Shown here piece by piece: positions 5,819 through 23,433 of a stretch of 24,539 nucleotides of DNA. The notes beneath the pieces were generated by a model. That model was given only the letters and a program-made list of their open reading frames with translations, made no database searches and was not told the DNA's origin. Where the stretch lies: positions 1-24,539 of IMG/VR virus record IMGVR_UViG_3300028416_000081; one strand, written 5' to 3'. This DNA comes from a virus. A program made the translations under genes and the position numbers. Numbering within the stretch: position 1 is the stretch's first letter; each line of letters opens with the position of its first letter.

Positions 5819-7303
5819 ATGGCAACTGGAAGACTTTCAGAATTACAGATTACGGATGCGACTACTTGGAAAGGTTTAACAACTGAAAACCACTTAGGAG
5901 CAATCTGGCAACAAGCCCCTCAGAAAGTATCTGACATGATCACTATGATCCAACAAAACAAGTTTGGAAACAATATTGATAGTGTACTATCTGCATTTCC
6001 AACATTGGAATTTGAAGATGACAGAGACTTTACTTGGGACCTTCAATCACAAGGATTGGACAATATTCCTTTAGTGGAATGTAGAATTGACGGTGTAGCC
6101 GTTACTCCTGCAGACACTCCAGGAAAAAACTTTACACAATTTGAATTAGTATTTGGAAAAGATTGGTTTTCTGATACAGAAAGAATTGTAGGTGAATTAA
6201 ATGAGATTTATCCTGTATTAATTCAGGAAGAGCCTGTACAAGAAGGTTCTAACTGGGTATACACTTGTGTAATGGATACAGGTAGTGCTGACATGTTTAT
6301 TCCTTATGAAGAAGTAACTGCAGGAAAGATTTTCTCTGGTGAATTTTCTCCAGTGGAAAGAACTATGTCTAGAAAAGGTAGAGAGCTTAAGCACAAAAGC
6401 TTAATTTCTATGCAAAATGGATTTTCTCAAATTAGAATCCAAAAGAAGACTCCTGGAAACATGAGTAAAAAGAAAATGGGATCTTACTATGTAGACAATG
6501 ATGGTAAAGCAGTTAAATTCTGGCAACACTATGAGTCTTACATGTTTGATAACGCATTTAGAGAAGACATCAACAAAATGTTAATGTTTGGTACTTCTAA
6601 CAAGTCTGCAGATGGTCAGTACAAAGTTAAAGGTAAATCAAGCTACGCTATTACTGAAGGGTCTGGTATCCGTCAGCAAATGGAAGCAGCTAACTCTAGC
6701 TTTTACAATGCATTCTCTATTGAAGATTTAAGCTCTAGATTATTAGATTTATCTGAAGGTAAATTAAAGTCTGATGAAAGAGCATTTGTATTGAGAACTG
6801 GAGAGCGTGGAGCATATGAGTTCCATAAGTCTTTAGAGCAATTTTCTCAATTGTTTACTCCATTGTTAAACCAAGACAGAATGTACAAAGCATCTGCTAG
6901 TGGTATTTCTCAAATGGAATTAGGATATGGTGGACAGTTTGTTGAGTTCATTGGACCTAACAACGTAAAAGTTAACTTATCTGTGGATTCTATGTATGAT
7001 GACAGAAACCGTAACAAATTAGCTCACCCTAAAGGTGGAGTTGTTGAAAGTTACCGTTATGATATCTTTGATATAGGAACTTCTGGTGGAGCACCTAACA
7101 TCCAAAAAGTGGCTGTTAAAGACCAACCAATTATCCATAAATATATTGCTGGTTTAAGAAACCCTTATGATCCAGATGGTGCATTTAGCGCAATTGGAAC
7201 TGCAGAAGATGCTTGGGAAGAGCACAAGTACTACTGTGGAGCTGCAATTGTTAGAGATCCATCTAGAACTGCAAGTTTCATAAACAACTTACAAGCAGCC
7301 TAA
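5819..7303 (+). CDS. Major capsid protein
   Basis: It builds the icosahedral shell and should have an HK97-type fold. At 494 aa it matches the usual length of crAss-like major capsid proteins, and its place after portal and scaffold and before the connector is canonical. The N-terminal motif ITDATTWKGLTTENHLGAIW, a conserved central stretch with KFWQHYESYMFDNAF (about 239-253), and FVLRTGERGAYEFHKSLEQF (about 323-342) look like this family. No collagen- or Ig-type decoration is fused to it. The gene is followed directly by a stable hairpin, consistent with a strongly expressed message. The start is fixed by the ATG after an A-rich leader 25 bases behind the scaffold stop. Confidence 0.85.
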   Translation: MATGRLSELQITDATTWKGLTTENHLGAIWQQAPQKVSDMITMIQQNKFGNNIDSVLSAFPTLEFEDDRDFTWDLQSQGLDNIPLVECRIDGVAVTPADTPGKNFTQFELVFGKDWFSDTERIVGELNEIYPVLIQEEPVQEGSNWVYTCVMDTGSADMFIPYEEVTAGKIFSGEFSPVERTMSRKGRELKHKSLISMQNGFSQIRIQKKTPGNMSKKKMGSYYVDNDGKAVKFWQHYESYMFDNAFREDINKMLMFGTSNKSADGQYKVKGKSSYAITEGSGIRQQMEAANSSFYNAFSIEDLSSRLLDLSEGKLKSDERAFVLRTGERGAYEFHKSLEQFSQLFTPLLNQDRMYKASASGISQMELGYGGQFVEFIGPNNVKVNLSVDSMYDDRNRNKLAHPKGGVVESYRYDIFDIGTSGGAPNIQKVAVKDQPIIHKYIAGLRNPYDPDGAFSAIGTAEDAWEEHKYYCGAAIVRDPSRTASFINNLQAA

Positions 7304-8972: not shown

Positions 8973-10226
8973 ATGGCAACATTTAGTCAAAATGACATTA
9001 ACTTAATGTTCTTAGGTGCGGCAGCTACTAAAACAACTGGAGGGATTGACTCTCTTAACGTTGGAGAAATAGGGCTTTTCACACCAGGTGGAACAAGACT
9101 TACAGAATCAAGTGCAGCTACTGCGGATGAATTTGTAATTGTAACAAAATATAGCGCAACTGCAGACCCTTTGGTTTCTGGTGCTATTAAGAAAGCTAAC
9201 ATTAAAAAAGCTAACGTAAAAGCTCATGAAGCTGCAACTCAGCAGTCTGATTTTATTGGGTTTAACGGTACTTCAGGAGCTATTGAGGTTGTTGCTGATA
9301 ATTTTTACAATGTAAGAATTAACTTAGCTCAGCACTGCACTTCTAACAAAGGAGGAATGGAAGTAAAGCATGGAAGTTATACTTCTGATGTAACTGCTAC
9401 TCAATCTGAGATTGCTGCAGGTTTACATTCTAGCTTAGTAAATAACTTCATTAAAGATGCTGACCAAGTAATTAAATTTGAGCGTCTTAACTCTCACGCA
9501 GGTGTTGCTTTAGGAACTGCTGTAGGTCCAGTTAACTTTGTAAAAGGTTCTAAATACATCAAAGCTGATGATATTGATGACGCTACTACAAATGCTGCTT
9601 TAGCTGTTGGTGGATACTTAAGAGTAGGTACTGCTGTAACTGATCCAGTATACAAAATTGTTGCTATTGATGCCGCAAATGATATTGCTGAATTAGATGT
9701 TGCTTACCAAGGAGCTACTGCTGAAATTGCTGACACTGCTTTAGAAAGTATTTCTGCTGCAAATGAAGTTGGTACTGATTGGGGTATTAAAGCTGAAGGT
9801 CAAGAATTAAAATTTGTTGTAGGAAAATTACACAACAACGTTGTTTCTTACACTTTAGGATTAGAAAACTTTGGAGCTACTGCTTTAACTAATGCTGCTG
9901 CTGCTTCTATTGGATCTGGATCTGAAAGATATGCAAAAGAATTAGAATGGTTCTTACAAGGAAATGAAGGTAACTATTTCAGAATGGGTGAACCTCATAT
10001 CTTTGATGCAAGAGCAACTGCTAACGGTGGTTATGATATGATTACTCTTACTTATGAAGAAGTATATACAGGGTCTATCACTGCAGGACCAATCAGAAAA
10101 GTATTTACTGTACTTGTTCCTGAAACTGCACCTAACTATGCTATCGCTGGTACATCTGATGATATTACTGACGTATTAGAAGTGCTGGTTTATGGATCAG
10201 CAAACGGTAACTTAGCTGTATCATAG
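8973..10226 (+). CDS. Putative major virion structural protein (tail-tube or capsid-auxiliary type)
   Basis: The exact role is not recognised. The 417-aa protein is Ala/Gly/Thr-rich and predicted to be mostly beta. Outer segments (about 1-170 and 265-417) enclose an insert at about 185-255 with GYLRVGTAVTDPVYKI and LDVAYQG, resembling a small beta-barrel or Ig-type insertion seen in some tail-tube and sheath proteins. A short lysine-rich repeat, AIKKANIKKANVK, lies at 71-83. Leucine is written mainly as TTA and alanine as GCT in the central part, and a strong terminator follows directly; both fit abundant expression. Its place after the connector fits a tail tube, but a head decoration protein is also possible. 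Confidence 0.55.
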   Translation: MATFSQNDINLMFLGAAATKTTGGIDSLNVGEIGLFTPGGTRLTESSAATADEFVIVTKYSATADPLVSGAIKKANIKKANVKAHEAATQQSDFIGFNGTSGAIEVVADNFYNVRINLAQHCTSNKGGMEVKHGSYTSDVTATQSEIAAGLHSSLVNNFIKDADQVIKFERLNSHAGVALGTAVGPVNFVKGSKYIKADDIDDATTNAALAVGGYLRVGTAVTDPVYKIVAIDAANDIAELDVAYQGATAEIADTALESISAANEVGTDWGIKAEGQELKFVVGKLHNNVVSYTLGLENFGATALTNAAAASIGSGSERYAKELEWFLQGNEGNYFRMGEPHIFDARATANGGYDMITLTYEEVYTGSITAGPIRKVFTVLVPETAPNYAIAGTSDDITDVLEVLVYGSANGNLAVS

Positions 10227-10318: not shown

Positions 10319-10882
10319 ATGGCGTTAGATTTAAACCTATCAGTATGTAATAGCTCTAATTGTGCTTCAGTTACTATAACTGACACAACAGGGCTTTATG
10401 ATGCTGCAAATAATACAGGAGGTTACGGAACTCCTAATGCTAATGCAAATGATGCAACTGCAGCCACAATAGTTATAACCTATCAAGACGGCTCTAGCAA
10501 TACTACAGATGTATTAAGTCAGATGCCTAGCACCCAAACAGAAGATAGTTTTTCTTTTTCAGAAATAACTTTGCCGTCAACTTTAGATGGAGAATATTCT
10601 GTAAAATACACGGTAACAAACCCTAATGGAACATATACTGAGGATGTATGCTTAATACTTACTTGTAATGCTAGGTGTTGTATTGATAAGATGTGGGCAA
10701 AAGCAGCAGAGGAAGCTTCTTATGATTGTGGATGTGATAGCTATATGAAGAAAGCAATGCAGGCGGAGGGAATGCTTAAGTCTTTAAAAAACTCTGCAAT
10801 ATTCAGTAATGAGGTAGCAAGAGATAAGATGCTTGCAACTATTCAAAGGCTGTGTAAAATGGAAAATTGTAATTGTAAATAA
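10319..10882 (+). CDS. Cys-rich tail-associated protein
   Basis: The function is unknown. The 187-aa product has two parts. Residues 1-115 are predicted beta-sandwich, with an N-terminal SVTITDTTGLYDAANNTGGYG stretch followed by Thr-rich strands, like other phage structural proteins I associate with Bacteroidetes phages. Residues 110-187 are helical and cysteine-rich. The whole protein has eleven cysteines: C10, C15, C111, C116, C120, C121, C137, C139, C179, C184 and C186. The pairs and CxC motifs could bind zinc or form disulfides. It is the first gene after the terminator and opens the fibre cluster, so it may anchor or organise fibres. The start follows an A-rich leader. Confidence 0.6.
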   Translation: MALDLNLSVCNSSNCASVTITDTTGLYDAANNTGGYGTPNANANDATAATIVITYQDGSSNTTDVLSQMPSTQTEDSFSFSEITLPSTLDGEYSVKYTVTNPNGTYTEDVCLILTCNARCCIDKMWAKAAEEASYDCGCDSYMKKAMQAEGMLKSLKNSAIFSNEVARDKMLATIQRLCKMENCNCK

Positions 10883-10900
10883 TATAAAAAAAATAATAAC

Positions 10901-11980
10901 ATGGCAAATTGCGGAAATTGCAATGACGATGAAATAATTGTTTTACCAGCAGGAAAACAAGGTGATCAAGGTATTCAAGGTGTTGCAGGAAATAATGGCG
11001 CAGACGGCTCTAATGGAGCTACATGGTTTACTGGCACAACTGGCCCTCACGTTAGTATTGGTAATGATGGAGATTTTTATCTAGACTCTACAACGGGAGC
11101 TATATATAACAAAACTTCTGGAACATGGGGTGCAGCAATAATAACTGTAACTGGAGTTGCAGGATTGGCTGGAGCTGATGGATCCTCATTTCTCACTGGG
11201 GCTGGAGTTCCGGGTGCTGGATTGGGAAATAATGGAGATACATATGTAAATCTTGGATCTTCTCTACTTGACCTATATACAAAATCTGGAGGCGCGTGGA
11301 CAGCTACAGGGCTCACTCTAAAAGGTGCTACTGGATCTGCAGGTTCTAATGGTACAAATGGAGCCAACGGGACTAACGGAACTAATGGTACTGACGGAAC
11401 AAAGCTGATACAAGGCTCAGGGGTTCCTGCTTCAGGGCTAGGGGAAGATGGTGATACGTATATAGACAATGCAAACAACAACATGTACCTTAAGGTCACG
11501 GGATCTTGGACTTTAACTGGAAATATTGGAACAGGAAGCATACCTGCAGGACAGGAGCATTTATTTAATGCAAAAAGCATTGTAAGTCAATACTTGTCTG
11601 ATTCAGATACAGCCACTTTAGAATTTTCTGATGATGCAAACTCTCCTCACTTTGATTACGGAAGTAATTTTATAACAAGCACTTGGACTTCTCCAGGAGC
11701 TTTGACAGGAGTAAAAATTGGAATAGTCTTGAATGTAGAGCTAGTAACAAATGGAACCGGAGCTCCAGGAACAATAACTGCAAGAATAAGAAAAAACGGA
11801 GGTGTTATTGAGACGTTAACAGGATCTTTAAACACTGCAGGAGATATTATAACCTTGCAAGGAGAAACTTCTGCAACAACGTTTGCAGCTTCAGATATAG
11901 TTATTTGCGAGCTCCAGGCAGCAGCAGGTGCTACATTTCAAATAAAAACATTACCAGGATCTATATTCTATAACGTATAA
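10901..11980 (+). CDS. Collagen-like tail fibre with C1q-like head
   Basis: It is probably a trimeric fibre. The N-terminus has a CGNC motif (4-7) and VLPAGKQGDQG, shared with the next protein and probably a virion-attachment segment. Three Gly-x-y tracts, about 18-42, 85-95 and 142-168 (the last rich in GTNGTNG), alternate with three copies of a roughly 40-residue unit at about 41-80, 96-141 and 168-210. That unit has the pattern GxxGDxYxD followed by a Y-K-G-W core. The C-terminal 215-359 region is a beta-rich C1q/TNF-like jelly roll (SIVSQYLSDSDTATLEF to the end), a common trimerising and ligand-binding head. Position and composition support a receptor-binding fibre; the ligand is unknown. 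Confidence 0.75.
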   Translation: MANCGNCNDDEIIVLPAGKQGDQGIQGVAGNNGADGSNGATWFTGTTGPHVSIGNDGDFYLDSTTGAIYNKTSGTWGAAIITVTGVAGLAGADGSSFLTGAGVPGAGLGNNGDTYVNLGSSLLDLYTKSGGAWTATGLTLKGATGSAGSNGTNGANGTNGTNGTDGTKLIQGSGVPASGLGEDGDTYIDNANNNMYLKVTGSWTLTGNIGTGSIPAGQEHLFNAKSIVSQYLSDSDTATLEFSDDANSPHFDYGSNFITSTWTSPGALTGVKIGIVLNVELVTNGTGAPGTITARIRKNGGVIETLTGSLNTAGDIITLQGETSATTFAASDIVICELQAAAGATFQIKTLPGSIFYNV

Positions 11981-11991
11981 AAATAAAAAAT

Positions 11992-12450
11992 ATGAGTTGC
12001 AAAACATGTACAACAACAGTAGTGCTTCCTAAAGGTGATGCAGGAGTGGCTGCTGAAGGATGGAAATGTATAAAATATAATGAGTCTGAAGGTGGAGATT
12101 CTGTGATAGCACAAGGAGAAACAACTTTAACACAAATGTCAACAACAGCATTGGCTTCAAAGATGCATCAAGTACATTCAACAATGTCTTTAAATATTCT
12201 TGGAGATGGTTCCCTTAATACAATAATGAGAGTATATGTAGGCTCTACTGAAGTTAAAAGAGTCAACAATAGATTTGGAAGTGATGTAGAATCTACAACA
12301 AGAGAGCTTCCAATGTTTTGGAGAGGAAGTGTTAATAAAGATGAAGTAATATCCTTAACATTTGAAGCTACAACTGTTAATGGAATTTCTGATGTAGAGA
12401 TACAGGATCATTCAATACTTGTTAACCAAGAGTCTGAAGATGCTAGCTAA
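11992..12450 (+). CDS. Small tail fibre with shared CxxC N-terminus
   Basis: The 152-aa protein begins with CKTC (3-6), then VVLPKGDAG, matching the N-terminus of the collagen-like fibre before it, so both may attach at the same virion site. A single short Gly-rich spacer replaces the long collagen tracts. Residues of about 25-148 form a predicted beta-sandwich, with STMSLNILGDGSLNTIMRVYVG and a closing VEIQDHSILVN, resembling a C1q-like head. It is 11 bases downstream of the previous stop, with leader AAAATAAAAAAT. It could be a second receptor-binding protein or a cap on the longer fibre. Confidence 0.6.
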   Translation: MSCKTCTTTVVLPKGDAGVAAEGWKCIKYNESEGGDSVIAQGETTLTQMSTTALASKMHQVHSTMSLNILGDGSLNTIMRVYVGSTEVKRVNNRFGSDVESTTRELPMFWRGSVNKDEVISLTFEATTVNGISDVEIQDHSILVNQESEDAS

Positions 12451-12460
12451 AAAACAATAA

Positions 12461-13045
12461 ATGAAAACATTACTTGAAAAAAGAGCAACAATAATGGCTC
12501 TACAATACAAGCATAGCGAGTTTAGTAATACTCTCGCTACTGCTTTATCTAACGGAACATGTGCTGAATGTATGCTAGACAAAAATGCTGCAATACTAAT
12601 GGCTATAGACGCTGTAAAAAGGTATCAGGTTTTTGATGCAAACACTCAGGATGTAGTAAAGGTTACTGCAACAAGAAACCTTCCAGGAAGTGTGACTATC
12701 TTGCTTGAGGAAAACTCTACTTCAATAGTAAAATATTCTGGAGACGGTACAGGAAGTGATGTTGTAGAGACATTTAAAAGCGCTGTAGATTCTGGAACTA
12801 ATTACCATACTTTAATTGACGGTAATTGCTTATACATATATACTCTTGAAGGAGAAAGTTCTATGGGAACTATTACTGCTCCTGTAATTCAGATTGGAGA
12901 TGATGTGCTAGCTACTACAGAAGTAGATAATGCCTACATAAGCATTGAGGATTTAATAGATATAGATAGCTTTAATTGCCTTACAGAAGAACAGCTTTGT
13001 AATATTATATCTTACGCAAAAAAGTTTTTAAACAAAATAACTTAG
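12461..13045 (+). CDS. Hypothetical protein in the fibre cluster
   Basis: I do not recognise this 194-aa protein. The N-terminal 50 residues are helical and include CAEC (34-37). The middle, about 58-140, is predicted beta-rich, with repeated Thr/Ser/Gly strands. The C-terminal 30 residues form a helix with two cysteines in NCLTEEQLCNII. An alternative start at codon 12 (ATG in RATIMAL) would give a 183-aa product; the first ATG is preferred because it follows an A-rich leader directly. The helix-beta-helix layout and the shared CxxC feature suggest a structural partner of the neighbouring fibres. Confidence 0.5.
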   Translation: MKTLLEKRATIMALQYKHSEFSNTLATALSNGTCAECMLDKNAAILMAIDAVKRYQVFDANTQDVVKVTATRNLPGSVTILLEENSTSIVKYSGDGTGSDVVETFKSAVDSGTNYHTLIDGNCLYIYTLEGESSMGTITAPVIQIGDDVLATTEVDNAYISIEDLIDIDSFNCLTEEQLCNIISYAKKFLNKIT

Positions 13046-13049
13046 AAAA

Positions 13050-13343
13050 ATGAATGATAACAAAAATTTAGAAAGAAAAGTGCAAATGTTGCTAGATAAA
13101 TCTCTAGTAGACAGCAAGCCTTTAGTGATAACTGATACAGCAGTAAATGTTGGTATTGACGGATATGCAGTGTACGCAATGACAGATACAGTATTCACAA
13201 CTTTAGATAATGGGACAACAGGAAATTCTTTAGTAGGCCCAACCTTACCTGCAGGACATGTTTGGTTTATACCAATCTTAGGGTCTGTAGAATTAGCAAG
13301 CGGCTCAGTTATAATATATCAAAACAACATATTAGGAAATTAG
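13050..13343 (+). CDS. Small beta-rich fibre or decoration protein
   Basis: The 97-aa product has a charged N-terminal helix of about 20 residues, then beta strands with VYAMTDTVFTTLDNGTTGNS, LPAGHVWFIPILGS and LASGSVIIYQN. This Thr/Gly-rich pattern ending in an SG-x-VIxY strand is one I associate with small phage fibre or spike accessory proteins. It starts 4 bases after the preceding stop, which points to co-translation. No catalytic motif is present. Function is not established. Confidence 0.5.
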   Translation: MNDNKNLERKVQMLLDKSLVDSKPLVITDTAVNVGIDGYAVYAMTDTVFTTLDNGTTGNSLVGPTLPAGHVWFIPILGSVELASGSVIIYQNNILGN

Positions 13344-13359
13344 TAATAAAAAATAAATT

Positions 13360-14100
13360 ATGTTATCATTAGGCTTAGGACTAGGTATTAATAAGTTTTC
13401 AGGGTTTTTAGGAAATGTTATAAAAAATTTCACTATAGATAAATCGTTTTTACTTGACGGTGTAGATGAAAATTTCACTGTTAACAGTGGGCTTGACACT
13501 ACTATAATGTCAGGAAGTAATTCTTGGTCTATTAGCGTTATGATGAAATACACAGGGTTCATCAATTTATTTGGTGATGGTGACTCAGCAACAGCATCTG
13601 ACCCTACTACAAAATCCTTTGCAATACTCATAAATGGTGGTGGGGTTCAAGTATATTATAATACGTTTAGTGGTATTTGTGCAACTAGCGGAGGTGTTAT
13701 AAGTACTAGCGGGTGGTCTTTTATTACATTTAACTATGACAAATCATTAAGCTCTAATAGAGGTCAAATATTTGTTAATGGTTCGCAAATTAACGTACCT
13801 ACAAATACTTTACCAGCTACGGAATTAGATTCTACTGGAGTGTACAAGTTCTTTTCTCAATTTAACTCAGCAGCGTTATTTGATAGAGTGTTAACATTGG
13901 CAGAGCATCAAGATTACTATAACAACGGAGAGCCTAAAGACCCACAGGCACTATTTGGTAGTAGCTGTAAACTGTTTTTAAATCCGGACAATAGTGGCAA
14001 CACTGCACCGTTTACAATCACAGATTCCGTTAACGGCTTATCTGCGACTTCTGTAAATATGGAAGATAGCGATAAAACAACAGACAGCCCTTATAGTTAA
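13360..14100 (+). CDS. LamG-like (concanavalin-type) adhesin
   Basis: The 246-aa protein has an N-terminal MLSLGLGLG motif, shared in form with the 227-aa protein encoded two genes downstream, then a LamG/concanavalin-like domain at about 28-190. Signs of the domain are SFLLDGVDENFTV at the start, SWSISVMMK, GWSFITFNYDK, GQIFVNG, and the closing FDRVLTLAEHQDYYNNGEP, the usual end strand and helix of Laminin_G_3-type folds. Such domains bind glycans in phage fibres, so this is a candidate receptor-binding protein. The last 55 residues are Ser/Asn/Asp-rich and of unknown role. The start follows AATAAAAAATAAATT. Confidence 0.68.
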   Translation: MLSLGLGLGINKFSGFLGNVIKNFTIDKSFLLDGVDENFTVNSGLDTTIMSGSNSWSISVMMKYTGFINLFGDGDSATASDPTTKSFAILINGGGVQVYYNTFSGICATSGGVISTSGWSFITFNYDKSLSSNRGQIFVNGSQINVPTNTLPATELDSTGVYKFFSQFNSAALFDRVLTLAEHQDYYNNGEPKDPQALFGSSCKLFLNPDNSGNTAPFTITDSVNGLSATSVNMEDSDKTTDSPYS

Positions 14101-14118
14101 TTACAAAAATAAATAGAT

Positions 14119-14340
14119 ATGAACAACATTTATTACATTATTCCAGCAGAAGATATTGAGATTCTACAATACAACAACATAATAGAGTTTCCTGATACTG
14201 CACTATGGAGCTTAGACAGAAGTAAATTTGTATGCAAAACAGAGGTGGGTTCTGAGCCTTTAGCTGAATACACAAATTACACAAGAGAAGAAATTAAATT
14301 AGAAATACAGGGGGCTGAGTGGTCTCCTGAAGAATTGTAA
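14119..14340 (+). CDS. Small hypothetical protein between adhesin genes
   Basis: The 73-aa product is acidic, has no membrane segment and no recognisable motif. It has the look of a compact alpha/beta protein: strands in NIYYIIPAEDIEIL and FVCKTEVG, then a charged C-terminal helix. Short genes beside fibre genes are sometimes fibre chaperones or caps, but nothing here proves it. The A-rich leader and tight spacing (18 bases behind, 23 ahead) support it as a real gene. Confidence 0.5.
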   Translation: MNNIYYIIPAEDIEILQYNNIIEFPDTALWSLDRSKFVCKTEVGSEPLAEYTNYTREEIKLEIQGAEWSPEEL

Positions 14341-14363
14341 TAATTATAATTAAAAAAATAAAT

Positions 14364-15047
14364 ATGCTTGGATTAGGAGTAGGAACAACTTTTGGAGGAG
14401 GGGGTGGAGATAATAGAGCAGGGATACAATATAAAAGACCCGTAGATACTTTAGTTACAACATCTTACGCGATATATGATGACGGCTGGCAGCGTGCTAA
14501 TGGTAAGTACAACTATCCTAGACCGGCAAACCCTTTATATTCTCAGGAGCTAGACGTTGCTACAGACCCGACAGGTAATACACTATTGCACGATAATGCC
14601 TTTGGTAACAAAATAAGGTTTACTGATGAATCCGGTGTTGCTTCTTTAGATATTCAAAGAATTTATACCATTGATAACTTAACCGGCTTAGGCTATTACG
14701 TTACTGCTAATGCTAATAACAAAGGAACTTGGGCAGATACTTTTGGAGTGGGTGGATTACTTGAACAAAGAAATGCAGATAATTTGGCAGGGTATAATGA
14801 TTACTTTTGCGCTAATCATCATATGTTAGACACTTTAATAAATTATCAAGGTTTAGCAACTGCAAACCCTATATTATTGCCTTATCGTAGGTTATATAAA
14901 GACCACATAGCAAGTTCAAACATTAGACCGAACACAACAACCGGAACACCAATGACTAGGTTTTATCTTAATTGGCAAGTTGGTATTTGGTATGCAGGTA
15001 TTTTAACAGCGTCAAGGCACATGTTAATGACTAGAATACATTTTTAA
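14364..15047 (+). CDS. Putative adhesin with Gly-rich N-terminus
   Basis: The 227-aa protein starts with MLGLGVGTTFGGGGG, comparable with MLSLGLGLG in the LamG protein encoded two genes upstream, and this may be a common attachment peptide. The rest, about 16-227, is rich in Asn, Tyr, Leu and Gly and has two aromatic clusters, GYNDYFCANHHMLD (about 151-164) and FYLNWQVGIWYAG. I do not recognise a fold. The layout, anchor-like N-terminus plus a separate globular part, fits a receptor-binding protein. Codon use looks slightly different from flanking genes (GGCTGGCAGCG near 14484), which may reflect exchange. Confidence 0.5.
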   Translation: MLGLGVGTTFGGGGGDNRAGIQYKRPVDTLVTTSYAIYDDGWQRANGKYNYPRPANPLYSQELDVATDPTGNTLLHDNAFGNKIRFTDESGVASLDIQRIYTIDNLTGLGYYVTANANNKGTWADTFGVGGLLEQRNADNLAGYNDYFCANHHMLDTLINYQGLATANPILLPYRRLYKDHIASSNIRPNTTTGTPMTRFYLNWQVGIWYAGILTASRHMLMTRIHF

Positions 15048-15058
15048 AAATATAAATT

Positions 15059-15370
15059 ATGATAACAATAGAAGAAGGATTAATCCTAAATAATCCAACA
15101 GCAAAAATTACTGCAATAACATATGTGCAGGATAGCAATTTAATAAGTGTACAGATACTCTTTAAAGAAGAAGGTAGTGTATTTGACCACTCTAGAGAAT
15201 ACATCTTTGAAAATGAAACGGGTGAAGATATGGTTTATGCTGATGTATTAGAATTAGTTAAAAGTCACGAAATTATAGGAGTTTTATTTGGAGGAGAAGC
15301 TCAAAGTTCTAGTCAAGGAATAATTTCCTCTACTGTAAACGCAATTAAAAACATATTCACTTCAAATTAA
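15059..15370 (+). CDS. Small hypothetical protein
   Basis: The 103-aa product is acidic and predicted alpha/beta, with strands around ITAITYVQ and LISVQILFKEE, a helix near DVLELVKSHE, and a Ser/Gln/Gly-rich tail (QSSSQG) ending in an amphipathic segment VNAIKNIF. The tail could insert into an oligomer or contact a membrane, but this is speculative. It lies 11 bases after and 10 bases before its neighbours. No named family is recognised. Confidence 0.5.
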   Translation: MITIEEGLILNNPTAKITAITYVQDSNLISVQILFKEEGSVFDHSREYIFENETGEDMVYADVLELVKSHEIIGVLFGGEAQSSSQGIISSTVNAIKNIFTSN

Positions 15371-15380
15371 AAAATAAAAT

Positions 15381-16529
15381 ATGAGTGCAAATGGAATAAA
15401 TCCAGCTAAAATTAAAAGAGTAGAAAGTCCTGTAAGTGAAAACTTAAGAATGATTGTAATAACTCCTGAAGGAAAAATGCAATCCGTACCTAAAAATGCA
15501 ATTTTAGAAGGTGAGAATAACGAAACTATTACAGAGTCACAATCTGCAAACAACATTACTATGTTGGCAGAAGGTAACAATGATTTTGTTATCACGGCCT
15601 CATGTATCCCTAAATGCACCTCTATAGGTCCTGTTGTACATGGAGAACCTTTTCAATGGTCTTTTCTGTTTAATAACACAGACCACGGGACTAGCTTCTT
15701 TACAAGTGTAAACGGAAATTCAAGCACAACAAACTTAGATGTAAACTACCCTATAGTTAAAAGCGTACTTCACTTTAGTATAAATAATGATGAATCTACA
15801 CAAGCTGTAGGAACATCTATAGGAGCAACAGTAGGAGTCTCTACAGCGCAATGCAATGCTTCAAGGTCTGTATCATCAACAGGATTTAGGATTTTTGGTA
15901 ATGGCACAACATGGACAGCTAACGGACCTCAAGCAAATGCTTTTTCTGTGCATTCACTGGTTTCGGGAAAAACCACACTAGCTAACACAGCTAACACTAA
16001 CTCTGTAGACTATAGAGAAGTTCAGATGACTTACGTAGGTAACAACAATTACAGAATTAAAAGGTTTTGGAGTGGTTTAGCAGGTAACGCTGTGGCTTTT
16101 CAATTAGTAGATAACACTACGAATGCAGTAGTAACAACAGCACCTACATCTGATGACGTTGTTGTAGTATCAAATTATGGTACTTACAGGACTAGTATTA
16201 ATTTGTATCGGTGGGTACTTACAGGGCAGTTTACCAACACTTTTTTAGAAAACAATAATTTTTGGGTGCACGGTATGTTTGAATTGTGGATGAAAGCATT
16301 CTCCGTTACTGATACTACTTCTTTGCTACGTTGGCAAGAAAAGTCAGGAGTTACAACATACAAGCTTTATAGGGATACGCAAGAAGATTTAAGCTCTAAA
16401 CAACTTATTTATTCAGGTTCATTGCTGGAGTTTAAAGACTCTGGATTGTCTTCTGACACTAAATACTACTACGAGTTAGAAGATCAAACAAACACAGAGG
16501 TAACAAGGTTTAATATAATTACAAAATAA
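15381..16529 (+). CDS. Putative tail fibre with fibronectin-III-like C-terminus
   Basis: The 382-aa protein starts with an anchor-like segment, IKRVESPVSENLR (11-23), repeated in the next protein (KALKRLESPLDENAR). Residues 60-300 are predicted beta-rich with many Asn, Thr and Ser. Residues 305-378 look like a fibronectin type III domain: SLLRWQEKSGVTTYKLYRD, then SGLSSDTKYYYELED, with the expected Trp, the Y-x-Y strand and the loop. Fibronectin III domains are common spacers in phage tail proteins. It is probably a structural or receptor-binding fibre. The start follows TTAAAAAATAAAAT. Confidence 0.6.
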   Translation: MSANGINPAKIKRVESPVSENLRMIVITPEGKMQSVPKNAILEGENNETITESQSANNITMLAEGNNDFVITASCIPKCTSIGPVVHGEPFQWSFLFNNTDHGTSFFTSVNGNSSTTNLDVNYPIVKSVLHFSINNDESTQAVGTSIGATVGVSTAQCNASRSVSSTGFRIFGNGTTWTANGPQANAFSVHSLVSGKTTLANTANTNSVDYREVQMTYVGNNNYRIKRFWSGLAGNAVAFQLVDNTTNAVVTTAPTSDDVVVVSNYGTYRTSINLYRWVLTGQFTNTFLENNNFWVHGMFELWMKAFSVTDTTSLLRWQEKSGVTTYKLYRDTQEDLSSKQLIYSGSLLEFKDSGLSSDTKYYYELEDQTNTEVTRFNIITK

Positions 16530-16534
16530 TATAC

Positions 16535-17338
16535 ATGGCAGCAAACAGAAACATTAAAGCGTTAAAAAGACTAGAGTCACCTCTAGACGAAAATGCAAGA
16601 GTACCAATAATGGACTCATTAAGCAGGGAGTTTTCAGTATCAATAAAAACTCTATCAGATGAAATCCTAAAAGGAGGGTCACTATCAGGAAGTGCTTCAG
16701 GCATTGAGTTTACTGGTGGTTTTGCTGGCAAACCTTTATCCAATCAGTATGTATGGCAAAACGGTGCAGGTATTAACTACACAGCATCAGATGTAACAGC
16801 AGGAATATTCAAGACTTTTAGCTTAGATTCAGCAGTACAAGCAGCAGTTGATACACCATATTGGACAGACCCAGTACCAGCAAGTCACACAGGTAAAGGT
16901 GTGTTTGGAGGATCATATTTACCAGAAGGAGTTACAAATGTATTTGATTATACTAGTGTGGATGCAGATACTTATGAAGACGGAACAAACGTGAAAACTA
17001 TTGGTGGATTAGATTTTTCACAATTAGCGGTTGGTGATAAAGTTGAATTAAGATTTGACTTTAACGCTATACCACAAATTGCAAATACTACCTTGCAACC
17101 AGCAATATGGTATAAAAACAGAGATGCGTCTAACAATGTAACTTTTACTTTCCCACTAACAGCACAGCCAATTTTTTACGGTACTGGAACCGTAGGGAAA
17201 ACGTATTTGAACAGGATAGAAATGAGCATTTATATTGCTTCTCAAGAGGACATTAATGCTTTAGGTCACTTCTCTGTAAAAAGTGATAACCCAATTATAA
17301 TACAACCTTTAAGTACATTATTCACATTAGTAAGATAA
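16535..17338 (+). CDS. Putative tail fibre sharing the ESP anchor motif
   Basis: The 267-aa product shares the N-terminal pattern IK-x-x-x-R-x-ESP-x-x-EN-x-R (8-22) with the preceding protein and then diverges. Residues 45-100 are Gly/Ser-rich, followed by predicted beta strands with YWTDPVPASH, YEDGTNVKTIGGLDFSQL and a region LHFDF-like around 170-180. The C-terminal part, IEMSIYIASQEDINALGHFSV, ends in a beta strand SDNPIIIQPL. No named domain is recognised. It starts five bases after the previous stop. A carbohydrate-binding jelly roll is possible from strand spacing only. Confidence 0.55.
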   Translation: MAANRNIKALKRLESPLDENARVPIMDSLSREFSVSIKTLSDEILKGGSLSGSASGIEFTGGFAGKPLSNQYVWQNGAGINYTASDVTAGIFKTFSLDSAVQAAVDTPYWTDPVPASHTGKGVFGGSYLPEGVTNVFDYTSVDADTYEDGTNVKTIGGLDFSQLAVGDKVELRFDFNAIPQIANTTLQPAIWYKNRDASNNVTFTFPLTAQPIFYGTGTVGKTYLNRIEMSIYIASQEDINALGHFSVKSDNPIIIQPLSTLFTLVR

Positions 17339-17357
17339 AATATAAAAAGATAAAATT

Positions 17358-20300
17358 ATGGCAATTAGAATAGAGCGTAATGAAGCAGGAAACTGTATAA
17401 ACTTCCACGGGGCAAGTAATCCAACATATTGGAACGCCTGTTTAAGTGGTGAAGTAGATATTGAAGATACTGGTGCTGTCAATGTAATAAACGATATTAT
17501 TACAGCGCAAACAGGAGTAACGGAATATGAATATTATAGAGTACCTTTTACAGAGTTTGTAGACGCTGACGGCAATGCGTTTGCAGACGCTCAAGATGCT
17601 GCTGACTACATAACTGAGAAAGCTAATGTAATTGGATTGTCTGGCGAAGGTATTGACCTTACAGGAGAGACAGTATGCTTTTCTTTAGATGCCACGAGTA
17701 CAAGTATAATGTTAGACACAGGTCACGCTTTTGGCGTTAACACTATAAAAGCTAATGCAAATGCAGACGGCACTATACATATAGTGTCTAATGATGGTGC
17801 TGATGATATTACTCATTTTCACCACTTAGATGCAACTAATACTTGTGTAAACGGAAATCCTGTAAGTGGCGGGCTGCAAGATGTAGTCAACACATTAAAT
17901 GAACTTTTCACAGTGGGTGCTTTTGAAAGTATAGTAATAGCCGATCCATACAGTACTATGGTTGCTGATGTAAGCGGAGTTAGCACAACAACGTCTTATG
18001 TAGGTTACGGGATAGACCCAATTGGTACTGATGTTTATGGTTCAACAAATACTAATTCGCAAAATGGATATAAAACAGTTGAAACAATTGATCAGGCAGG
18101 CGAATATTTCACATTTGATATCAGGGTTGAAGGCACAATAGGTTTTGGGTTAGTTCATTCACAAGACAGCTATAATGACGGCTATTGGAGTGGCAATTCT
18201 ACTTATGCAGACCCTACGACCTTTGGCGTAAGCAATAGCGGGCATAGTGGCTTTCAATTTTCTCATTGGTTTCACCCAACGCCAAACGGCTCTTGGACTA
18301 ACTACGGAGCTAACACAGGCTACTCTATGAGAGCAGGTTGGTCTAATTTTAACGGTACTGATGAGCAAGCTGATTGGTTAGCTGGTAACCCTATAAAAGT
18401 TAGGGTTGGTATTGATACAAATGGATACATTTCCATTGATACCTTAAGGAATGGTACTGATTGGGTTGTGCACGCAAGAACTTCATACCCTATTGTTGAT
18501 GGAGCTGAGTTTCATTTAGGAATTAAAACTAATCATACAGGTGCTAGAGTTCACACTTTGCCAAAAGTTCACTTGTTAGAACCTGCTGCACCTACTATGT
18601 ATTTTAGGTATGCTGAATCACCAGATAACGTATTCAAAAGTCCTTTATTTTTAACAACAGAAGAAGCAGAATACTACGACACTATAAAAGGCGGCTCAGG
18701 AACATATACCACGCTGAATTTACCTGATGACCCTACAAATACTCTTTGGTATGTACCTGATACGGAGTATACAGGTAATGGTGTTGCAGCCCCTAGTGGT
18801 AATACTTTTGAGGGTAACTCTATAAACTGGACTGAAATAACAACACAAACTAATGCTGATTTAGTACCGATTTCTTTTTCTAATCAAACTGTAACAGTAA
18901 GTGAATTAAGCTCTGTGAATATACAGGTTCATCCGCAAGGTGCTTCTTGGAACACGAATATTGTAGATACTGACAGTAGCGGCTTGTTGTTAGACAACAC
19001 AAGTTTTCATGTTTACGGAACAGCTCCTGCAGTAACTGGAGACAATGTAGCTAACCCTAGTGATAGTTACGAAATTGAAATAGTCAGGAGCAATTCTTAT
19101 GGATCCTCATCAGGGATTTTAACTGTTGTAGTTGAGAATCTCACAGCTCCTATTATAACTCCTATTACTGGATTTACTCACAATGCTAGTTCTACAGCCT
19201 TGGCTTCTTCTAGTAAGATGGACTCTGGTTCTGTTATTACTATGGATGAAGACCTTAAAGACTTAGAAAGATTTATAATATTAAAGTCTTACGTAGAGAC
19301 AAATATTTTACCTTCAATTCTGGCTACGGGTGGTAAATATTACATAGGTGTATTAAACTCTGGAGCTAACGTTTCCTCTGTTGAAGATGCTGACTGGGAT
19401 GTTGCCTTTGTCTGGGAATATCAAACCCCTACAACTCATAAGTATAGGGTTATTAAAGATGGAGTTCAACAATGGAGTGTAGGCATTGGAAGTAACACAT
19501 CTGCACTATTTGATTATGCTATTGAGTCACATGATGGTTACGTACACATGATTGCTTGTAATGCCAACGCAATTAATACAGAACCTTCTCCTGAGTTTGG
19601 TGGAACCTTTACTAATGCAACAGAAGTTACTCTGGATGAGTCTTACCCATTAACTATATCAATGGCATACGTAGGTTCTGATGATGCTAAATTTGAGACA
19701 ACGGGATTAAGTGAGATTGTAACTCCTTTGCCTGATGATTTTATTCAAGTAACAGCAAATCCATCTCACACCCTATTATTTGATGGTCAAGCAGCAATTC
19801 CAACTTTACAAGCTGGATATACTTATAGATTTATGGTAGGAGATACTAAGTACTCAGACCTGTCTACAAGCACAGGATTACATGCTGATGATGACTTAAG
19901 ATTTACTGCGGATGGAATTACTGAATATACTACAGGAATTACAAGAGTTGGAAATCCAAATGATGTAGATACTTTTGGTATGCATACAGCTTATGTAGAA
20001 TTTACTGTACCTTCTAATGTTCCGCCTTTACAATGGTATACTGACCATAATGGAATTGGCTCTGCAACTGGAATTACTATTTCAGGCTCTACTTATGTTG
20101 TCCCTGTAACTGGGGTTACTATTGAAGGACCTACAGCAAACTTTACTGGAAATGTAATCAACTCAGGAAGTAATGGGTGGATTTCTCTTAACGAGCAACT
20201 TCATGCAGGGGAACGCCTTGTTCTTGACTCTGCGTTTTTACAAGACCTTAATTCTGCTCTTCCTGACAATTGTATTTTTTGGGTTGGACTTAAAGATAGT

Positions 20301-21719
20301 AGCTGGTCAAATACAAGTACAGGTACTGGAGCATTTAAAGGGTCTGCTGCTATTCGTTTTTATAACACAGCTAGTGCTACTGAGCCAGGGCTTCGTATGT
20401 TGGGTTATGCAAATGGAGGTGTCAGCTCTCAGCTTTACACAGCAAGTGTTGCTAATGCAAATGCCTTTATTGAAATAACTGGCTCTGGTAATAACATTAG
20501 ACTAGGATACACTGCTTCTACTAGCTATAACGCTAGTAGTACTACTTATGGCAATTGGGATGGAAACTCAAAAGTGCAAACAGGCGAACAAGGATATGGT
20601 ATTAGTGGCATTGATGTAGTAATTTATTGGCAAGCTATTGCTAACAATACTGTTGGGTTTGATATATCTGATGTTGATTTTACAGGATTAACAGAAATCA
20701 ATATACCAACACCTACAGTGACTAATGATACATCTTGGACTAAAGCTTTAGATTTTAGTGGTTCTAATGAGCACACTAAACAAGTTGCTAGTTGGATACA
20801 GGTACAACCATTACAAATGGGTGGGTTAGCTAACACAGTTGATTTAGGTACTACTTCACAAGGTGATACGTCTAATAACACATCTGCTAGACCTTGGGCA
20901 ACAGCAGTTGTATTCAAGTCAGATGGTTACAGTGGTACTCAAATGATATGGAATCAAGGAGAAGGCTCTTCAAATGGAGATGATAATATCTCATTAGTTT
21001 TAGGCGGTAATGGAGAACTTAGCTTACAATGGGGGCGACAAGGAACAGGAGTTAATAAATGTAGAATAGCTCAGAACATATCCTCTTCTAATTGGTATGG
21101 AATTTCTATAGCTCATAATGGAGTAAGGCTAGGAGGTAATAATGCTTCTGCGTCTAACTTAGCTAATTGTTTTAACATTAAACTAATGAGTAGTGCGGAT
21201 TCATTTGTTTCAATAAGTAGTAATCTATCTACTTCAGCTAACTGGGTACAGACAGGTCAAAGAATGGATAGAACTGTAGCAGGTGACTTTACTATTGGTG
21301 GTAGAGGAAGCGGATATAGTTTTAGAGGTAAAGTTGCTAGTATGGTAGTTACTACATTACTTCAAGGTGGCTATAGTAGCGCTCAAATGCCTGAAGGAAC
21401 TATGGTTGGTTCCAACCAAGCAAAGATGATGATTACTGACCCTGTTAAATGGGTTGCTACTTATAAGGTTAGATTAGGTTCGGGTAACCCTAATGGTTTA
21501 TTTAGAAAATCTGCTGAGAGATTTGCAACGAATTATTACACACCTACAGGCGCTTATCAGTCAACTTTAGTGTGGTTAATGGGAGATGGTGCTAGCGATT
21601 CTTATTCTAATGGAGTAAGGAACTATATCTACCCGTCTGACCAAAACTCTAGTAAGATGCAACTTAATAGTATGGTATCTAATGATATTGAGAATGTAAA
21701 TATCTCAGGATTAAGTTAA
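17358..21719 (+). CDS. Large multidomain tail fibre / receptor-binding protein
   Basis: At 1453 aa it is the largest gene in the window. The N-terminus has NCINFHGASNPTYWNACLSG (12-31), probably the virion attachment. Residues of about 185-410 form a beta-rich unit with many aromatic residues. Residues 411-600 contain MYFRYAESPDNVF and a later NPSDSYEIEIVRSNSYGSS, a module I associate with marine phage tail proteins. Repeat A (605-791) and repeat B (930-1118) are diverged duplicates. Between them, 795-905, is a cupredoxin-like module with most metal ligands lost. Residues 1125-1335 resemble LamG (RPWATAVVFKSDG, MIWNQGEG, NWYGISIAHNG, GKVASMVVTTL). The last 110 residues include WLMGDGASDSYSNGVRN and a terminal VNISGLS. 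It is a probable host-range determinant; the ligand is unknown. It closes the fibre operon. Confidence 0.72.
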   Translation: MAIRIERNEAGNCINFHGASNPTYWNACLSGEVDIEDTGAVNVINDIITAQTGVTEYEYYRVPFTEFVDADGNAFADAQDAADYITEKANVIGLSGEGIDLTGETVCFSLDATSTSIMLDTGHAFGVNTIKANANADGTIHIVSNDGADDITHFHHLDATNTCVNGNPVSGGLQDVVNTLNELFTVGAFESIVIADPYSTMVADVSGVSTTTSYVGYGIDPIGTDVYGSTNTNSQNGYKTVETIDQAGEYFTFDIRVEGTIGFGLVHSQDSYNDGYWSGNSTYADPTTFGVSNSGHSGFQFSHWFHPTPNGSWTNYGANTGYSMRAGWSNFNGTDEQADWLAGNPIKVRVGIDTNGYISIDTLRNGTDWVVHARTSYPIVDGAEFHLGIKTNHTGARVHTLPKVHLLEPAAPTMYFRYAESPDNVFKSPLFLTTEEAEYYDTIKGGSGTYTTLNLPDDPTNTLWYVPDTEYTGNGVAAPSGNTFEGNSINWTEITTQTNADLVPISFSNQTVTVSELSSVNIQVHPQGASWNTNIVDTDSSGLLLDNTSFHVYGTAPAVTGDNVANPSDSYEIEIVRSNSYGSSSGILTVVVENLTAPIITPITGFTHNASSTALASSSKMDSGSVITMDEDLKDLERFIILKSYVETNILPSILATGGKYYIGVLNSGANVSSVEDADWDVAFVWEYQTPTTHKYRVIKDGVQQWSVGIGSNTSALFDYAIESHDGYVHMIACNANAINTEPSPEFGGTFTNATEVTLDESYPLTISMAYVGSDDAKFETTGLSEIVTPLPDDFIQVTANPSHTLLFDGQAAIPTLQAGYTYRFMVGDTKYSDLSTSTGLHADDDLRFTADGITEYTTGITRVGNPNDVDTFGMHTAYVEFTVPSNVPPLQWYTDHNGIGSATGITISGSTYVVPVTGVTIEGPTANFTGNVINSGSNGWISLNEQLHAGERLVLDSAFLQDLNSALPDNCIFWVGLKDSSWSNTSTGTGAFKGSAAIRFYNTASATEPGLRMLGYANGGVSSQLYTASVANANAFIEITGSGNNIRLGYTASTSYNASSTTYGNWDGNSKVQTGEQGYGISGIDVVIYWQAIANNTVGFDISDVDFTGLTEINIPTPTVTNDTSWTKALDFSGSNEHTKQVASWIQVQPLQMGGLANTVDLGTTSQGDTSNNTSARPWATAVVFKSDGYSGTQMIWNQGEGSSNGDDNISLVLGGNGELSLQWGRQGTGVNKCRIAQNISSSNWYGISIAHNGVRLGGNNASASNLANCFNIKLMSSADSFVSISSNLSTSANWVQTGQRMDRTVAGDFTIGGRGSGYSFRGKVASMVVTTLLQGGYSSAQMPEGTMVGSNQAKMMITDPVKWVATYKVRLGSGNPNGLFRKSAERFATNYYTPTGAYQSTLVWLMGDGASDSYSNGVRNYIYPSDQNSSKMQLNSMVSNDIENVNISGLS
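19170..19730 (+). repeat. Internal fibre repeat, copy A
   Basis: This encodes residues 605-791 of the 1453-aa fibre. It pairs with copy B at protein level: ITMDEDLKDLERFIIL matches ISLNEQLHAGERLVLD, KYYIGVLNS matches IFWVGLKDS, and TTGLSEIVTPLP matches FTGLTEINIPTP. The copies are separated by the cupredoxin-like module. Confidence 0.6.
20145..20711 (+). repeat. Internal fibre repeat, copy B
   Basis: This encodes residues 930-1118 of the 1453-aa fibre, the diverged partner of copy A. It precedes the LamG-like region directly. Confidence 0.6.
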
Positions 21720-21859: not shown

Positions 21860-22336
21860 ATGACTGACAGAGATATTTACAAAGAGATACAAGAGTATTT
21901 TGTTGTGCAGGAGTTTGTTAGCTCTAAAGTTTATAAGAAGCATGGTGATAGAGCTTGGAAGTTTATATGTCCAAGATTACTTGAAACAATGTTATTTATA
22001 AGAAAAGAGCTTGGTAGGCCAATTAAAATTAACACTTGGCACATTGGTGGCAGGTTTTCTCAAAGAGGCCTTAGAAGTAATCTAGGATCAATATTCTTAA
22101 GCAAATTTAGAAAAGGAAGAATGTACTTGTCTGCTCACGTAATGGGTAGAGCTGTAGATTTTGATGTTCAAGGAATGACTGCACCTGAAGTGCGTCAGTG
22201 GTTAAAAGGAAAGTATAAGGAACTTCCTTACAAGATACGCTTAGAAAATAAAATGAATGGCAAACAAATTTCTTGGGTGCACTTAGATATGTTTTATGAA
22301 GAAAAAAATAAGAAGGTATATTTATTCAATATATAA
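21860..22336 (+). CDS. M15-type peptidase endolysin
   Basis: It probably cleaves peptide crosslinks or stems in peptidoglycan to release progeny. The 158-aa protein has the M15 zinc-site pattern: SAHVMGRAVDFD (91-102), giving H93 and D100, and SWVHLDM (138-144), giving H141 with D143 close by. It has no signal peptide, so access to the cell wall should depend on a holin. The N-terminal 60 residues are basic and helical. The protein is short, comparable with Peptidase_M15_3-type endolysins, and S138 occupies the place where some M15 enzymes carry the catalytic acid. Its stop overlaps the next start by one base (TAATG). Confidence 0.8.
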   Translation: MTDRDIYKEIQEYFVVQEFVSSKVYKKHGDRAWKFICPRLLETMLFIRKELGRPIKINTWHIGGRFSQRGLRSNLGSIFLSKFRKGRMYLSAHVMGRAVDFDVQGMTAPEVRQWLKGKYKELPYKIRLENKMNGKQISWVHLDMFYEEKNKKVYLFNI

Positions 22337-23001
22337 TGGAATACTTGAAAAACACTTATGCACTAGTTGCAACTGTTATTGCATTAATATTGGGATACAA
22401 GTCCTGTTCCAAGGAGCCTTCATTATTAGCTCCGGAAGTAATTTCTAGAACAATATATGTAGACTCTTCAAGAACTAACTATGAACACTACAAAGATAGT
22501 GTTGAGAATTGGGTTCACTTTTCATATTCAGAAATTCCTGAAATAAAAAAAGATGGAGTTGTAACAAGATACATATACCTAGATAACAAAACAGACAGCG
22601 TAGCAATAGACTCTATTGTTTTAAATAATCCAATAGACACATTTTACTACGGAAAAAAAGATAGCCTCTTAGAATACAGTATAAGAGTCTATGGAGTTGT
22701 AAAGCCATCCAAGATTGAGATGGAATACAACATCTTGAATAAAATCTACAAAGATTCAGTATACGTGAGAGATTCTATCCACGTAGAACAAAAAGAAAAA
22801 GTCAGAGTTAATCAGCTCTATGTTGGTTTTGAAACTAATATTACTCCAGAGCTAGACCGCCCTTACCTTACACTAGACCTTGTAACTAAAAAAGGTTGGA
22901 TGTATGGCGCAGGGATAGGGTATGACTTTAATGATAATCAGAAATATATAAAAGCAAAAATAGCAAAAGTAATAAGCTTCAGAAAAAAACAACAAAGATA
23001 A
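22336..23001 (+). CDS. Membrane-anchored spanin-like lysis protein
   Basis: The 221-aa protein has an N-terminal hydrophobic helix (about 6-20) followed by YKSCSKEP, a poor match to a lipobox; C24 could still be lipidated. The rest is periplasmic in type: charged, rich in Asp/Ser/Tyr, with DSVYVRDSIHVEQKEKV before a C-terminal beta-rich stretch, YVGFETN and KKGWMYGAGIGYDF, that resembles outer-membrane strands. Placement between endolysin and holin-like genes and the membrane anchor suggest a spanin or envelope-spanning lysis factor. There is no C-terminal membrane helix, so a classical two-end u-spanin is not clear. TAATG overlaps link it to both neighbours. Identification is by context. Confidence 0.5.
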   Translation: MEYLKNTYALVATVIALILGYKSCSKEPSLLAPEVISRTIYVDSSRTNYEHYKDSVENWVHFSYSEIPEIKKDGVVTRYIYLDNKTDSVAIDSIVLNNPIDTFYYGKKDSLLEYSIRVYGVVKPSKIEMEYNILNKIYKDSVYVRDSIHVEQKEKVRVNQLYVGFETNITPELDRPYLTLDLVTKKGWMYGAGIGYDFNDNQKYIKAKIAKVISFRKKQQR

Positions 23002-23231
23002 TGACTTCAAACTACAACGACATAGCAGGACTAATAACAATAGCAAGCGCATCATTAATGAAAATATTAAACGCACTAGAATTAACTGACATTAATAGCT
23101 GGTCAATAGCATTAACAGGTATAGGAGGTCTTATCTATTTATATTACAAGGTAAAAGCAACAAGAACAGAAAGTAAAACAAAAGACATAGAATATAAACT
23201 TGCAAAAAGAAAATTAGATGAAAAAATTTAG
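23001..23231 (+). CDS. Holin-like small membrane protein 1
   Basis: The 76-aa product has two hydrophobic segments, about 9-24 and 33-49, a short acidic loop (LELTDIN), and a basic C-terminal tail rich in Lys and Glu. This is the shape of a class II type holin that would make holes for the endolysin. It starts within the stop of the preceding gene (TAATG) and overlaps the next gene by 14 bases. The location in a lysis cassette is the main evidence. Confidence 0.55.
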   Translation: MTSNYNDIAGLITIASASLMKILNALELTDINSWSIALTGIGGLIYLYYKVKATRTESKTKDIEYKLAKRKLDEKI

Positions 23232-23433
23232 TGAAGCATTAAAAGATAACTACGCAACAATAGTGGGGGCGGTACTAATGCTATTGGCAATAACAATATA
23301 CACAATATCATTCTTTTCAGAATTTGATATGGCATGGTATGAAGCTGTAGCAATGATGGTTGTAGGTTGGATATTCTTAATGGCAAAAGATAAGTACTTT
23401 GAAAAGTTGATTTCAGTATTTATTAAAAAGTAG
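23218..23433 (+). CDS. Holin-like small membrane protein 2
   Basis: The 71-aa product starts inside the end of the preceding gene in another frame. It has two hydrophobic helices, about 13-33 and 40-55, joined by a short FSEFDMAW turn, and a basic C-terminus (LISVFIKK). Two small membrane proteins in tandem could be a holin and an antiholin, or one may be unrelated to lysis. The overlap makes coupled expression likely. Confidence 0.5.
   Translation: MKKFSEALKDNYATIVGAVLMLLAITIYTISFFSEFDMAWYEAVAMMVVGWIFLMAKDKYFEKLISVFIKK

Follow-up and report, generated by a model that had tools for sequence, protein, structure and literature searches.

The window analysed here, a 24.5-kb virus record, encodes a major capsid protein approximately 40% identical to that of the Bacteroides phage crAss001, and its crass-type major capsid, portal and terminase genes match PHROG families with E-values of 2e-90, 1e-129 and 2e-92, respectively. 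On the grounds of these matches, of the capsid identity and of a gene order that is the same in close relatives among viral contigs, the sequence assigns this phage to the Crassvirales, as an aquatic relative of crAssphage from the gut. DNA comparison against GenBank phages did not return any near-identical relative. Twelve genes on one strand span positions 10319-21719 (Table 1), with the lengths given by the first-pass annotation, which had described them as a modular array of fibre genes. The array is real, but g10319 and possibly g12461 look like parts of a tail hub rather than fibres. Behind the array (21860-23433), several small genes resemble lysis genes by inspection, including those for a peptidase-like 158-aa protein and for membrane proteins. 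Loci identified in viral contigs are designated below with L numbers (L013, L033 and so forth).

Table 1. Genes and features of the window discussed in the text, with the evidence for each
Feature	Position	Strand	Evidence
Major capsid protein, crAss-like	5819..7303	+	PHROG 11589 E 2e-90; 40% identity to crAss001
Auxiliary capsid protein, crAss001 gp36 position	8973..10226	+	Profile match to gp36, hhalign E 5.5e-8
g10319, predicted tail hub protein A (crAss001 gp38-like), candidate fibre-docking hub subunit	10319..10882	+	AlphaFold2 fold
g10901, motif-1 protein, collagen-like, 359 aa	10901..11980	+	CxxC + VLPxGxxG; Pfam Collagen E 1.5e-6
g11992, second motif-1 protein, without collagen repeats, 152 aa	11992..12450	+	CxxC + VLPxGxxG
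g12461, possible tail hub protein B (crAss001 gp39-like)	12461..13045	+	Weak profile comparison and position
g13050, ~90-aa protein adjoining motif-2 gene, candidate motif-2 socket	13050..13343	+	Gene order in family
g13360, motif-2 protein, LamG-like body, 246 aa	13360..14100	+	MLSLGLG start; Laminin_G_3 E 2.5e-4 (under Pfam cutoff)
g14119, 73-aa accessory protein after LamG gene	14119..14340	+	No family match and no relatives found
g14364, motif-2 protein, Lcl_C-like body, 227 aa	14364..15047	+	MLGLGVG start; Lcl_C via homologue
g15059, 103-aa accessory protein paired with Lcl_C-like body	15059..15370	+	Homologues after that body in L054 and L033
g15381, motif-3 protein, 382 aa	15381..16529	+	KRxESPxxENxR common with g16535
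g16535, motif-3 anchor (residues 1-57) and mobile 211-aa body (residues 57-267)	16535..17338	+	Body in 55 ORFs
g17358, large fibre protein, 1453 aa, partner of g16535 body	17358..21719	+	Cyanophage homologues; gene order

Three pairs of array proteins had been reported to share a short N-terminal motif and to diverge completely behind it. The shared starts read MANCGNC..VLPAGKQG in g10901 and MSCKTC..VVLPKGDAG in g11992 (pair 1), MLSLGLG in g13360 and MLGLGVG in g14364 (pair 2), and KRVESPVSENLR in g15381 and KRLESPLDENAR in g16535 (pair 3). Motifs 1 and 2 follow the reported wording, whereas the shared part of motif 3 is KRxESPxxENxR, the leading IKxxx being out of register between the two proteins. 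In shuffle tests over the first 45 residues, pair 3 reached p = 8e-5, against p ~0.05 for each of pairs 1 and 2, which fail multiple-test correction on their own, and the remainders of all three pairs presented no similarity (p 0.39 to 0.91). Within the window alone, pair 3 is hence convincing and pairs 1 and 2 are marginal, the latter two gaining support from relatives: profiles built exclusively from relatives recovered g10901 (E 3e-4), g11992 (E 0.008) and g13360 (E 0.0017). The same approach did not recover g14364 (E 7); one of its homologues likewise starts with MFGLGLG, and it is mainly through this homologue that g14364 is placed in the motif-2 class, motif 2 being very short. The pattern of shared N-termini and divergent remainders is thus borne out, with unequal support among pairs.

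The values of p ~0.05 reached by pairs 1 and 2 within the window would also be compatible with chance matches in an ordinary row of unrelated fibre genes. This explanation is very improbable, since it is contradicted by the relatives, in which profiles recover three of the four pair-1 and pair-2 proteins and the gene-order associations described below are strong. The labels initially given to the bodies held in part. The LamG assignment of g13360 is weak, its match falling under the Pfam cutoff, and strong in other motif-2 proteins, whereas no Pfam match was obtained for C1q or fibronectin heads in the array proteins.

Relatives of the auxiliary capsid gene were identified at 70 loci in viral contigs, and g10319 presented 56 homologous ORFs, 43 of them below 90% identity. 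With motif 1 defined as CxxC followed by [IV]PxG, a cysteine-rich start was observed in the first or second gene behind the g10319 homologue at 30 of 41 non-redundant loci, compared to 23 of the 876 other ORFs with 120 or more residues. A looser form, such as a single cysteine followed by [IV]PxG, is displayed at this position by several of the other loci, and at some loci no CxxC protein follows the g10319 homologue. The C-terminal 130 residues of motif-1 proteins were alike in 10 of 630 pairs. The comparison with relatives proposed by the first-pass annotation hence reveals conserved N-termini followed by variable C-termini for motif 1 and, as detailed below, for motif 2. One locus (L076, 11852-16709) has three consecutive motif-1 genes (330, 315 and 971 aa), where the window has two; the C-terminal ends of the first two are alike, which suggests a duplication.

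The AlphaFold2 model of g10319 (pLDDT 92) provided a candidate for the structure next to which these motif-1 genes lie. Alignment with VIA-align against 7qoj_G, the tail hub protein A (gp38) of crAss001, extended over residues 5-187 (Z 9.2, 154 aligned residues, rmsd 4.3) and covered the whole model; this match ranked 14 by Z and fell outside the first 50 with Foldseek alone, most other top matches encompassing the beta domain alone (about 95 residues). Comparison of sequence profiles with hhalign aligned the C-terminal ends of the two proteins but did not link them with confidence (P 0.036). Each of the two ends in a cysteine-rich helical part, and both genes come after the auxiliary capsid gene, with one homing endonuclease in between in crAss001. 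By its model, g10319 most likely has the two-domain fold of gp38. Searches with tblastn against GenBank phages returned no significant match for g10319 or the auxiliary capsid protein, and PDB sequence searches returned nothing significant for g10319, g13050 or g16535. The case for g12461 is weak: profile comparison with gp39 yielded P 0.0043 over 30 columns, with controls at 0.15 to 0.44, and this protein is possibly tail hub protein B.

In crAss001, fibres dock via short N-termini (residues 1-38 of gp21, 1-58 of gp29 and 1-26 of gp22), with the 26 N-terminal residues of gp22 held by a hub that is stabilised by disulfides, and two head fibres lodged in two kinds of hexon pocket, for which the authors proposed unrelated proteins in other crassviruses (PMC10172136). 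Based on gene order and on their cysteines, the motif-1 proteins would likely sit on the g10319 hub. The same precedent could be read the other way, with the fibres hanging on the capsid and their short N-termini filling hexon pockets like those of gp21 and gp29, and such a reading would fit an array that begins right after the auxiliary capsid gene and a locus (L033, see below) at which a head-closure protein and a g14364-type body are fused. We consider capsid docking a serious but doubtful alternative, because, of the two genes that flank the motif-1 genes, g10319 and possibly g12461 look tail-hub-like, and because the disulfide-stabilised hub of crAss001 suits a cysteine-rich N-terminus.

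A scan of viral contigs with a degenerate DNA pattern encoding MLGLGLGI and one further residue yielded 14 matches, among them nine ORFs of at least 50 codons, seven of which are distinct; the five others, nine-codon ORFs of one family, were left out. In these five (L095, L100, L101, L107 and L108), the ORF MLGLGLGIK-stop lies ~100 bases before a conserved gene starting with MSTQTRSTPLPVP. A gene of the g13050 family was found directly upstream of six of the seven distinct motif-2 ORFs. Independently of this pattern, a motif-2-like gene comes after the g13050 homologue in the window and in five loci picked by their capsid gene, with starts reading MLSLGLG, MFGLGLG, MSLGLGL, MLGLALH, MYGYFHT and MYGYYNN. 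In total, the g13050 family comprises 12 members and one fusion, each with a motif-2-like gene directly downstream. The bodies behind motif 2 include LamG, Lcl_C, arabinofuranosidase-like and other domains, are mostly unrelated to each other and are carried by unrelated phages. The codons of motif 2 vary synonymously, and the constraint therefore acts on the protein.

The simplest reading of this gene order is that g13050 is a likely candidate for the socket that receives the motif-2 peptide. Its model (pLDDT 78) is cupin- or barrel-like, and fold searches returned cupin- and barrel-like matches with Z up to 7.4, within the usual background and with no secure match among them. At one locus (L105, 10703-11506), the gene directly before a motif-2 LamG gene encodes a 267-aa protein that has LPAGTNxIG-type repeats and ends in a g13050-type domain; this hints at an arrangement with the g13050-type protein on the inner side and the motif-2 protein on the outer side. 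No significant match to g13360 or to a g13050 homologue was detected among GenBank phages with tblastn, and a literature search, weak evidence in itself, found no report of the motif-2 string. Small proteins are encoded behind the motif-2 genes of L059, L105 and L019 at the place of g14119, to which no homology was found.

Shared N-termini might also operate in assembly or translation, for instance as chaperone-binding sequences, and not as virion anchors. Motif 2 is very short and begins at residue 1, and the small accessory genes g14119 and g15059, which could encode chaperones, adjoin the fibre genes. This possibility is nonetheless improbable: the synonymous variation of motif-2 codons speaks against a DNA or RNA signal, the g13050-type domain of L105 ends a longer fibre-like protein, and in L124 the body of g16535 stands behind a T7 tail-fibre anchor domain.

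The body of the second motif-2 protein offered further evidence of exchange. g14364 itself had no Pfam match, and scanning viral contigs directly with it gave no relatives; its homologue L054_8675 matched Lcl_C (E 7.7e-11). At L033 (8746-9885), a body of this Lcl_C-like type stands behind an N-terminus matching the head-closure protein Hc1; the contig holds crAss-like genes together with sheath and tape-measure genes, and the protein is either a real fusion or the product of a chimeric assembly. A g15059-type protein of ~103 aa is encoded directly after the Lcl_C-like body in the window, in L054 (9328-9639) and in L033 (9821-10144), and one of these three phages, L033, has a different N-terminus ahead of the body. 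This suggests g15059 as a candidate cognate chaperone or accessory protein of the Lcl_C-like body. The presence of this body led us to consider a diversity-generating retroelement and its target proteins (tentaclins), and no template/variable repeat pair was found within the window, itself a genome fragment.

The clearest case of a body on exchangeable N-terminal parts, as the first-pass annotation had envisaged for the array, is that of g16535. Its body shares 86% identity with that in L013, whose portal and tape-measure genes belong to a different phage type, and ~42% with those in cyanophages. Scanning with this body identified 49 loci, which, together with the window and reference loci, add up to 55 ORFs, a few of them from a contig included twice. 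Their N-termini fall into 21 unrelated clusters and measure 13 to 300 residues, lengths that depend on the start codon chosen. The N-termini all join the body just ahead of an EFTGGF-type sequence, and behind 47 of the 55 ORFs a g17358 homologue comes next. Homologues of g17358 were also detected in 15 cyanophage records, most with at least 80% coverage at 33-38% identity, one of which (PSS2) is annotated as 'fiber Ig/hemolysin'. A search of 84,980 genomes of bacteria and archaea did not find the body of g16535. In sequence terms, the same body thus stands on unrelated N-termini in different phages, very clearly so for g16535 and with L033 as a second case.

In L124, the N-terminus before the g16535 body is a Phage_T7_tail domain (Pfam E 5.9e-14), by which the fibre of T7 is attached to its tail. 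Since this and other N-termini join the body at the same place, residues 1-57 of g16535 appear to occupy the position of an anchor. Motif 3 loosely resembles other fibre N-termini, in that a profile of relatives' fibre N-termini scored g16535 at E 0.061 and gp22 of crAss001 at E 0.13, neither significant, the N-termini of gp21 and gp29 not being among the listed matches. For g15381, direct scanning of viral contigs identified no relatives. It is conceivable that motif 3, as opposed to motifs 1 and 2, arose when a single fibre N-terminus was recently duplicated locally, and does not define a docking class, given that g15381 and g16535 are neighbours and that no relative was found with a clearly homologous motif-3 N-terminus. 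We regard this origin as rather unlikely, for the body of g16535 also follows 20 further N-termini, which include an established tail anchor domain.

The position of the array can be compared with that of cultured relatives. In the marine crAss-like Cellulophaga phage phi14:2, the auxiliary capsid gene (gp099) and a hub-like gene (gp098, profile E 2.4e-4) are followed by gp097, gp096, gp094, gp092 and gp091, all annotated as virion proteins from MS/MS. Both phages present the succession of auxiliary capsid, hub-like gene, fibre array, lysis-type genes and metallophosphoesterase, whereas the fibre N-termini and bodies of phi14:2 differ, with gp097 showing an IQVKR...W...P-type start as in crAss001 gp25. 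By analogy, the proteomics of phi14:2 supports the presence of several fibre proteins per virion at this position, though not of the same proteins. The earlier suggestion that one virion carries many adhesins is thus supported by position, and the window's own fibres would presumably be incorporated likewise. With crAss001 (Kehishuvirus primarius), the phage of the window shares a Crassvirales virion and, by predicted fold over the whole length of g10319, gp38; unlike in the window, where fibre genes lie within and behind the hub gene region and have different N-termini, those of crAss001 lie elsewhere (around gp21-gp29).

The cyanophage fibre pairs S-CREM2 gp129/gp130 and S-CRES1 gp91/gp92 combine, like g16535 and g17358, the ~42% identical 211-aa body with a large fibre homologue, but their N-termini, hosts and virion types are wholly different. 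Modules for host recognition are known to be common to the unrelated and morphologically distinct Alteromonas phages A5 and V22 (PMC10579305), and Klebsiella receptor-binding proteins are modular (PMC8262889). Those systems also join an anchor to an exchangeable specificity part; in contrast to them, the window combines several N-terminal classes in one array, and its cassette spans cyanophages and crAss-like phages.

Overall, these results are consistent with the array being the host-recognition section of a crAss-like phage, with a hub subunit, three anchor classes, replaceable bodies and a mobile cassette, a reading to which we assign a probability of roughly 0.75. In this scheme, g10319 would most likely be a subunit of the tail hub, a collar holding the fibres, around which at least three classes of fibre would be arranged, each characterised by a short attachment piece at its N-terminus. 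For the three fixed docking points of the first-pass annotation, which are still putative, gene order links motif 1 to the predicted hub protein and motif 2 to its small upstream partner. The cysteine-rich class would likely be fixed at or near the hub, the hydrophobic MLxLGxG class likely to g13050, encoded just upstream, and the KRxESP class would constitute a third mode of attachment. The body behind each piece, which would contact the receptor, could be replaced by recombination, and the g16535 body and g17358 form a two-gene cassette to which each carrier adds its own N-terminus at a fixed junction. Carriers were observed among crAss-like phages and cyanophages, in addition to one phage with a different type of portal and tape-measure genes. 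The computations thus show the N-terminal classes, the variability of the bodies, the junction, the cassette and the hub-like predicted fold of g10319, from which we infer the contacts, the sequence of parts along the fibre, receptor binding and the incorporation of these very proteins into the virion. The known hosts of crAss-like phages are Bacteroidota. The odds appear evenly balanced for a broader proposal, in which g13050-type proteins and MLxLGxG would form a general plug-and-socket couple in unrelated phages, so that many kinds of lectins or enzymes could be hung on a virion given the seven-residue start and the small gene upstream, and the g16535-g17358 cassette moves between cyanophages and Bacteroidota phages via one fixed junction.

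The modularity of fibres and their exchange between unrelated phages are already known (PMC8262889, PMC10579305), as is, from crAss001, the docking of fibres whose short N-termini occupy pockets of the hub or of hexons (PMC10172136). As far as our searches reach, three features look new: the pairing of motif 2 with g13050, the cysteine-rich class beside a crAss-like hub and how widely the cassette is distributed. If the proposed organisation is correct, a single crAss-like virion would show several different adhesins via separate attachment classes, and short N-terminal pieces would tell which fibre goes where. Fibre proteins could then be assigned in many uncultured crAss-like genomes, with g13050 as a named partner for one of the anchors. 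Fibre parts would moreover cross between phages of very different hosts, which would bear on the evolution of host range.
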